From Symbiobacterium thermophilum IAM 14863 (GTDB taxonomy: Bacteria > Bacillota > Sulfobacillia > Symbiobacteriales > Symbiobacteriaceae): DNA of 64,000 nt. Position 1 is the stretch's first letter. Each line of letters opens with the position of its first letter. The position numbers and the translations under genes are program-made. Below, piece by piece: positions 384 through 57,576 of this stretch. The notes beneath the pieces were generated by a model that saw only the letters and a list, made by a program, of their open reading frames with translations, was not told where the DNA came from and did no database searches. Where the stretch lies: positions 620,001-684,000 of the forward strand of contig NC_006177.1 in NCBI RefSeq assembly GCF_000009905.1, in the 5' to 3' direction.

Positions 384-915
384 GGCTGTTCGAGGCGGAA
401 TGTGCATGGTGTTTCGGGTACCGAAGGTATTTTCCGCCTCGAACCGGGGGGAGCGGGGCCAGATGGTGGTGTGAGGCCTGCGGGGTAGGCGCAGGGGTGG
501 GCTGTTCGAGGCGGAATGTGCATGGTGCTTCGGGCACCGAAGGTATATTCCGCCTCGAACCGGGGGGGAGCGGGGCCGAATGGTAGTGTGAGGACTGTGG
601 GAGGAGGCGCAGGGGTGGGCTGTTCGAGGCGGAATGTGCATGGTGCTTCGGGCACCGAAGGTATTTTCCGCCTCGAACCGGGTGGGAGAGAGGCTGGATG
701 GTGGTGTGAGGACTGCGGGGGAGGCGCACGGGAGGGCTGTTCGAGGCGGAATGTGCATGGTGTTTCGGGTACCGAAGGTATTTTCCGCCTCGAACCGGGG
801 GGAGCGGGGCCGGATGGTGGTGTGAGGACTGCGGGGGAGGCGCACGGGGTGAGCTGTTCGAGGCGAAATGTGCACGGTGCTTCGGGAGCCGAATGTATAT
901 TTCGCCTCGAACCGA
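384..915. repeat. Hairpin array 1: five tandem long inverted repeats, period about 117 bp
   Basis: Five copies start near 384, 500, 617, 735 and 853. Each is about 62-67 nt with outer arms GTTCGAGGCGGAA and TTCCGCCTCGAAC (13-14 bp) and an inner stem CTTCGG/CCGAAG closing a 3-nt loop. Copies are separated by a conserved G-rich spacer of about 50 bp. Copy 5 has GGCGAAAT on the left arm and ATTTCGCC on the right: both strands changed, so pairing is kept. Copies 1 and 4 carry TTTCGG/CCGAAG, a wobble version of the inner stem. Periods of 116-118 bp break any reading frame, so open frames through here are not genes. The flanks 206-383 and 916-1133 hold nothing I can name. CRISPR is excluded because the spacers are near identical. 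Confidence 0.9.
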
Positions 916-22272: not shown

Positions 22273-23150
22273 CTAGGGGTTGCGGAAAGTGCACACTCGT
22301 TTCACTGACGGGGCGGTGGCGGAGGAAGGTCGGCAGGTGGGGCGGTGGTTGCCGTGGGGGAGTCCGTCTCACTCGATCGGCTGGTCGTCGTTGACACAGA
22401 AGTGCACTTTCCGAGGCGCCGTGTGCCACAAGGGATGCGGGGATTGCGGTGCCGGAAGCGCTCGTGGCCCAAGGGGTTGCGGAAAGTGCACATTCGTTTC
22501 ACTGACGGGGCGCTGGCGGAGGAAGGTCGGCCGGTGGGGCGGTGGTTGCCGTGGGGGAGGGTGCCTCACTCGGTCGGCTGTCCGTCGTTGACACAGAAGT
22601 GCACTTTCGGAGGCGCCTTGTGCCACAAGGGATGCGGGGATTGCGGTGCCGGAAGCGCTCGTGGCCCAAGGGGTTGCGGAAAGTGCACACTCGTTTCACT
22701 GATGGGGCGGTGGCGGAGGAAGGTCGGCAGGTGGGTCGGTGGTTGCCGTGGGGGAGTCCGTCTCACGCGGTCGGCTGGTCGTCGTTGACACAGAAGTGCA
22801 CTTTCGGAGGCGCCTTGTGCCACAAGGGATGCGGGGATTGCGGTGCTGGAGACGCTTGTGGCCCAAGGGGTTGCGAAAAGTGCACATTCGTTTCACCGGT
22901 CGGCGCGGGCGACGGGTGAGCCCTGGACAAGGCGGTGGCGACATGGCGACGAGCGACCAGCGGGGCGTGACAGGTGGCCGGGTGCCGCGATATCCGAGAA
23001 ACGATTGTGCGGGTCATGGGAATCGCATCCTGGTTCCGGCGAGGCTACGGGAACCCGAGTCGGTTTCTGCGGGTCGATGGAACCCGTGTTGGCAGACTTC
23101 GGGATCGCGATGTGGTGGGGATTGGTTTGACAAAAGGCATAAAGTTCTTG

Positions 23151-56436: not shown

Positions 56437-56569
56437 GCGCGTCGGCGCCGCTCTGCAGTGCGCTCCGCTGCGCCCGCGCCGTCCGCCTGCGGAGCTTGAA
56501 CGAAGCGGCCTGAGACGCAGACCGAAGTCGAGGCCCGGGTTCTGGGTGCTGACCGCGTTCGGGGTCTGC

Positions 56570-57363
56570 GCGCAGAATCTGAACCCATCTCCCGGGGGGA
56601 AGTACAGGTTTTGCGTGTCGACCCCCGTCCGGTGCGGAGTCTCCGCGCAGAACCTGAGGCGGTGTCCGGAGTTGCGGTTCAGGTTTTGCGCGTCTACCCC
56701 CGGGCGAAGCCGAGTTCCCGCGCAAAACCTGAAGCGGTGCCCCGAGGCGCGGTTCAGGTTCTGCGCGTCGACCCCCGGGCGAAGCCGAGTTCCCGCGCAA
56801 AATCTGAAGCGGTGCCCCGAGGCGCGGTTCAGGTTCTGCGCGTCGACCCCGCCTGATGCCGAGTTCCCGCGCAAAATCTGAAGCGGTGCCCCGAGGCGCG
56901 GCTCAGGTTTTGCGCGTCGACCCCGCCTGATGCCGAGTTCCCGCGCAAGATCTGAAGCGGTGCCCCGACGCGCGGTTCAGGTTTTGCGCGTCGACCCCCG
57001 GGCGAAGCCGAGTTCCCGCGCAAAATCTGAAGCGGTGCCCCGAGCCGCGGTTCAGGTTCTGCGCGTCTACCCCCGGGCGAAGCCGAGTTCCCGCGCAAAA
57101 TCTGAAGCGGTGCCCCGAGGCGCGGCTCAGGTTTTGCGCGTCGACCCCCGGGCGAAGCCGAGTTCCCGCGCAAAATCTGAAGCGGTGCCCCGAGGCGTGG
57201 TTCAGATTTTGCGCGTCGACCCCGTCGGGTGCCGAGTTCCCGCGCAAAACCTGAAGCGGTGTCCCGAGGCGCGGCTCAGGTTCTGCGCGTCGGTCCGCGC
57301 CTCGTGCGGAACTCCCGCGCAGAACCTGAAGCGGTCTCCGGAGTTGCGGTTCAGGTTCTGCGC
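56570..57363. repeat. Hairpin array 3: eleven tandem inverted-repeat units, period 74-75 bp
   Basis: Units begin at about 56570, 56645, 56720, 56795, 56869, 56943, 57018, 57093, 57168, 57242 and 57317. Each has arms GCGCAAAATCTGAA (or AACCTGAA) and TTCAGGTTTTGCGC around a 19-nt constant loop (GCGGTGCCCCGAGGCGCGG in the centre of the array), then a constant spacer of about 27 nt (GTCGACCCCCGGGCGAAGCC). In the unit at 57168 both arms read AAAATCTGAA/TTCAGATTTT, a fully paired variant. The end units (1, 2 and 11) are the most divergent. Mixed 74/75-bp steps break any frame. The flanks 56437-56569 and 57364-57576 hold nothing I recognise. Confidence 0.92.
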
Positions 57364-57576
57364 GTCGACCACCACCGGGCTATCCCCCTCGCCGTGAAAC
57401 CGGGGCCTGTGGCCAGGATTGGGCCTCAGCGCCCATTGCCGCGGCCTGCCCTTCTCTCGGGACGTGGCGAAGGCCAGGACGCCGGCGGCGCATCACCGGT
57501 CGGGCAGCGGTGGGAGGGGAGGGGCAGGAGGCCACCCGGTCCGGGTGGAAAGAATAAGTCCTCAGAGGTGAGTGCC

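Follow-up and report, generated by a model that had tools for sequence, protein, structure and literature searches.

The five palindromes downstream of glyS in Symbiobacterium thermophilum belong to a family of arrays dispersed throughout the genome, an aspect missed by the first-pass annotation of this DNA, and these arrays probably act (with a probability of roughly 0.6) as protein-binding platforms in double-stranded DNA. The window analyzed here is a 64,000-nt stretch (positions 620001-684000) of the source genome (G000), a single contig of 3,566,135 bp in which at least 24 related arrays (15 family A loci and nine family B loci) were located between genes. Literature searches returned no description of these arrays; the S. 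thermophilum genome paper may hold an earlier mention.

Array 1 and the two array families

Array 1 was confirmed as five imperfect palindromes (positions 388-912) lying in the intergenic region 3' of glyS. The features of the window and the family A loci are listed below (no strand is assigned to arrays and dyads).

1-143, + strand: 3' end of glyS (glycyl-tRNA synthetase beta subunit, PF02092), upstream neighbor
162-210, + strand: inverted repeat resembling a terminator, with a T-containing stretch after it, located between glyS and array 1 (read directly in the sequence)
384-915, no strand: array 1, family A array of five dyads, period 116-118 bp (11 helical turns)
388-444, no strand: dyad 1, spanning 45 bp between the outer ends of its 13-bp core half-sites (394-406 on +, 426-438 on -)
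504-560, no strand: dyad 2, core 510-554
622-678, no strand: dyad 3, core 628-672
739-795, no strand: dyad 4, core 745-789
856-912, no strand: dyad 5, core 862-906, with a G-C to A-T change in both arms
1134-1736, + strand: GyrI-like domain protein (PF06445), downstream neighbor
56560-57375, no strand: array of family B with half-site CAGRTTYTGCGCG; about 11 dyads repeat every ~74.6 bp (7 turns), each with the 45-bp geometry seen in family A
Family A loci in G000: 620.4, 700.6, 1205.9, 1248.4, 1493.6, 2104.8, 2368.7 and 2552.9 kb
Family A loci in G000, continued: 2572.3, 2741.2, 2771.1, 3188.8, 3365.5, 3440.6 and 3504.0 kb

Start-to-start distances between successive dyads of array 1 were 116, 118, 117, and 117 bp, and TRF reported a period of 117 with 4.6 copies (score 862). 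The first-pass annotation was accurate on the positions of these five tandem copies, on their 116-118 bp repeat, and on an outer stem of 13-14 bp (13 bp in copies 1, 3, and 4; 14 bp in copies 2 and 5), the perfect outer arms being GTTCGAGGCGGAA(T) / (A)TTCCGCCTCGAAC. The inner hairpin that it described as tetraloop-like is present, though in most cases its loop is predicted to have 3 nt or 5 nt; this hairpin is missing from most other family A arrays. Its statement that reading frames are not maintained across copies also held. As it had proposed, the copies are not a terminator cluster, as no run of T follows the stem, which leads into CCGGGGGGAG or similar. Nor are they a CRISPR, which they resemble in having regular repeats and spacers: here the spacers are copies of each other and not unique, the palindrome is about 57 bp, and no cas gene adjoins. 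An Rfam scan of the 64-kb window matched no family to array 1 and returned only two tRNAs.

The search with a covariance model across the genome and its relatives, which the first-pass annotation had called for, yielded a dispersed family in G000 and in a congener, G002 (142 and 28 strand matches, respectively, at E ≤ 1). Searching with array 1 as DNA returned diverged relatives at seven further G000 loci and one in G002. When the half-site GGCGRAWTGTGCA was searched with at most one mismatch, 141 matches were obtained in G000 versus 8 for the reversed control, 27 versus 4 in G002, and 7 versus 4 in the third Symbiobacterium genome (G001). Family A half-sites are scarce elsewhere in G000 (122 of the 141 matches fall in arrays), solitary units are almost absent, and a script run over the half-sites counted approximately 72 dyads at the 15 loci. 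Given these other genomic copies, array 1 is not the single locus-specific expansion under which the annotation would have regarded it as a neutral duplication. The lone half-site at 1080023, which precedes an ORF, was considered as the site of an autoregulated regulator and dismissed, the encoded protein reading as an oxidoreductase.

Family B comprises approximately 88 dyads at nine loci, the third array of the window (56560-57375) and eight others. Its half-sites alternate between two steps: the first measures 36 bp in 87 of 88 cases, and the second 38-39 bp, except in the array at 2848.8 kb, where it is 28 bp, one turn less. The spacing pattern of family A recurs independently in family B. 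Both families share two inverted half-sites (outward T.CA.ATTC.GC) with a span of exactly 45 bp. Read outward from the dyad center, TGCACATTCCGCC (A) and TTCAGATTCTGCG (B) are identical at 9 of 13 core positions (consensuses, counted by eye), and when the consensuses were aligned with both dyads set to 45 bp, zero shift was the best of the shifts tried. From this resemblance we infer that families A and B are subtypes of one system.

Conserved arms and whole-turn spacing

Paired half-sites of family A stand 45 bp apart in 71 of 73 cases. Each half-site consists of a 13-bp core and measures about 20 bp in all, and the 19-bp dyad center is not conserved. Calculated on per-array consensuses, information content was highest in the 13-bp arms (1.68 bits per position), followed by the outer arm (1.08), the 19-bp center (0.50), and the sequence outside (0.32). 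Pairing was compared with shuffles in which partners were exchanged among sequences. In 38 family A dyads, pairing was 80.3% versus 83.0% in shuffles, and the observed covariation score was reached by 500 of 500 shuffles; in 41 family B dyads, pairing was 91.7% versus 92.3%. As the arms are conserved and their pairing is no better than in shuffles, they appear to be kept as sequence and not as a helix, which contradicts the earlier suggestion that conservation lies in the structure and not in the loop sequence.

Structured RNA or single-stranded DNA hairpins, active in mRNA 3'-end protection, as a small RNA, or as a nuclease or integrase substrate, would account for the location at gene 3' ends and for the strong single-strand folds (array 1 folds better than shuffles on both strands, with z of -4.0 to -6.9 on the + strand). 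Locally, an inner CTTCG...CGAAG hairpin recurs together with + strand G.U pairs in the glyS arrays of both species (array 1 and its G002 orthologue), and an RNA role confined to this locus could be read from these sequences. As an explanation of the families, such hairpins are nevertheless very improbable: pairs do not covary in A or B, consistent arm mismatches are tolerated, loops are not conserved, Rfam gave no match, and the spacing is quantized in helical turns, which has no evident meaning for RNA.

The distinct array periods (64.0, 74.6, 85.3, 106.7, 117, 127, and 139 bp) are integer multiples of about 10.65 bp. Between 10.2 and 11.0 bp, the best common divisor was 10.63 bp (R = 0.975), the periods fitting multiples of 10.63-10.66 bp, and 17 of 200,000 uniform random sets did as well, a post hoc p of about 1e-4 for a test conceived after the periods were known, on only seven distinct periods from arrays some of which may share descent. 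Half-site gaps corresponded to 3, 4, 5, 7, 8, 9, and 10 turns, along with two further gap classes (117 and 139.5); as the latter may reflect missed or decayed units, the phasing test was redone on periods, with variants dropping the doubtful ones. The sites thus stand whole helical turns apart, as in a helically phased array, which puts every half-site on one face of the helix. Such spacing points to double-stranded DNA instead of the RNA or single-stranded DNA function that had first been suggested. S. thermophilum was obtained at 60 °C (PMC10893535), and DNA twist drops by about 0.011-0.0135 degree per °C (PMC8942373); lowering the twist from that of a 10.5-bp turn gives about 10.6 bp per turn at 60 °C, so a repeat of ~10.65 bp suits DNA at that temperature.

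Cooperative binding on one face of a duplex predicts the combination found here: conserved inverted half-sites, a dyad span that is fixed, and repeats at whole turns. A sequence-specific protein would bind each dyad as a dimer and assemble side by side on one DNA face, producing a nucleoprotein structure between transcription units. Its role would likely be architectural (a domain boundary, anchoring, or the handling of supercoils between genes) and not the regulation of neighboring promoters. Against this reading stand the ready folding of single strands of the dyads, a G002-type motif in the array at 700.6 kb, and an array with a 197-bp period (window 22276-22896) that is out of phase.

Gene context, relatives, and known systems

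Family A arrays are intergenic and lie at gene 3' ends. Using a codon-trained gene caller, eight of the 15 loci were convergent, seven tandem, and none divergent, compared to 15 convergent, 100 tandem, and 50 divergent among background intergenic regions of at least 100 bp (Fisher p of 8e-5 for the convergent excess and 0.006 for the divergent deficit). The nine family B loci were one convergent, seven tandem, and one divergent. Scanned neighbors (glyS, aldehyde dehydrogenase, aconitase, acetate kinase, a tRNA methyltransferase-like gene, PTS enzyme I, and others) shared no common function and included neither a candidate binding protein nor partition genes. This placement, beside neighbors lacking a common function, argues against promoter operators.

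Among 154 genomes of the class, only G000 and G002 matched the covariance model at E ≤ 0.01. Three G002 arrays lie at loci homologous to G000 arrays (620, 700, and 1206 kb). The glyS array occupies the same place in both genomes, with a period of 127-128 bp in G002 versus 117 bp, one turn more, and flanks that are 86-87% identical. Beyond the glyS locus, G002 arrays carry GGCAG where G000 has GGCGG, a variant half-site found genome-wide, and a shift of this kind is what a single trans-acting factor recognizing all sites would be expected to cause. Neither family A nor family B arrays were found in G001, so the family is not essential to the genus. A wider DNA search matched the contigs of one Bacillota MAG and, apart from these, only two single palindromes from clostridia. 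Phage or plasmid origin was also considered, and no matching copy was found.

The G002-type half-site motif in the G000 array at 700.6 kb (region 694800-707000) is accompanied by an identity to G002 of 88-93% across array and flanks, compared to ~81-87% for the glyS region. This array was possibly exchanged between lineages.

Neutral satellite DNA, in which copies of a palindrome reached several loci and then multiplied through slippage or unequal exchange, would fit the similarity of units within an array (~90% by TRF, with array 1 spacers much alike between units), the spacers that differ between arrays, the lack of a common flanking gene, and the many other tandem arrays in these genomes. 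We regard this origin as quite unlikely, since half-sites, unlike spacers, are kept from locus to locus and between species, the 45-bp span is exact, periods are limited to whole turns, and family A keeps away from divergent promoters.

Among known systems, the REP/BIME class comes closest: intergenic elements of many copies located downstream of or between convergent genes, for which gyrase, IHF, and DNA polymerase I are reported as BIME partners (PMC2817692, PMC3733652). Under this explanation, a transposase would have spread the arrays as extragenic palindromes, either selfish or domesticated, and gyrase or nucleoid proteins would have come to bind them later at gene 3' ends. The Symbiobacterium arrays are likewise extragenic palindromes of alternating, inverted orientation, with many copies per genome and the downstream or convergent placement described for REPs (PMC3733652, PMC2817692). 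However, the RAYT/IS200-like transposase that the first-pass annotation had proposed looking for was not found, as Y1_Tnp (PF01797) was missing from G000, G001, and G002 and was detected in five control genomes, and neither a GTAG nor a CGTC tag stands at the stem end in the family A consensus GGTTCGAGGCGGAATGTGCA. The Symbiobacterium dyad is larger, units occur in arrays and not as singlets, the arrays were found only in two Symbiobacterium genomes, and the REP features described in the portions of those sources consulted include neither a fixed 45-bp span nor whole-turn periods. Lacking the two REP marks, the arrays are BIME-like in placement and were not classed as REP/BIME; descent from such elements is unlikely.

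Iteron and partition-site arrays (e.g., of the parC/ParR type) consist of repeated sites on one helical face where protein assembles cooperatively. The arrays described here likewise place repeated sites on one helical face, but they occupy two dozen chromosomal loci and not one, their half-sites are inverted and 20 bp long, and no partition genes were among the scanned neighbors.

More tentatively, the binding platforms may together form a previously undescribed chromosome-organizing system of Symbiobacterium. A putative protein would occupy the 24 or more arrays, phased by whole turns and of two half-site subtypes, as a bacterial equivalent of the architectural proteins that bind satellite DNA, and protein and sites would co-evolve between species. 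If the reading as protein-binding platforms is right, natural variation in array spacing would record the genome's own helical repeat (~10.65 bp, as expected near 60 °C), and some two dozen sites would be marked where a putative architectural protein should sit. A 59-bp duplex would then be a ready probe for fishing out the binding protein, and the arrays would offer a case of binding sites fixed in place that change sequence and spacing together between related species.

Other arrays and neighboring elements

Further tandem arrays have periods of 197 and 114 bp in G000 and 94.5, 170, and 193 bp in G001; on simple comparison, none of the 197, 114, and 94.5 bp periods comes close to an integer multiple of 10.65. 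The 197-bp palindrome array (window 22276-22896) lies beside an apparent transposon end, and its half-site (TGCACTTTCCG outward) resembles family A. As a whole it is not in helical phase, with one step of 75 bp and another of 122 bp, and part of its unit recurs at several G000 and many G002 loci. The 114-bp array (G000 2011686-2012082, 3.5 copies) is unrelated to A or B by eye. Few other tandem arrays were found in a 400-kb sample of G000, and further array families may exist beyond it.

Palindrome arrays of its own were located in G001 at L161 13540-13960, L149 16166-16634, and L147 10611-11287 (periods of 94.5, 170, and 193 bp), the first of which had no second locus. Weak model matches in G005 and G007 were rejected as family members and read as coding-like repeats, except for one lone hairpin in G007, a genome of the sister family (L056 1500-1550). 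This hairpin (GAGGCAAAATGTGCG...CGCACATTTTGCCTC) has a similar core, GGCAAAATGTGCG, and a span of 47 bp, and may be a relic, a relative, or a product of chance.

In G000, a stretch of ~680 kb, running from 3504 kb through coordinate 1 to 620 kb, holds no family A or B array, which is not significant alone. The family A array at 1493.6 kb (from 5985) closely follows a group II intron (RVT_1, GIIM, RF02001, RF00029; L088 4148-5943), which may have inserted beside or into the array.
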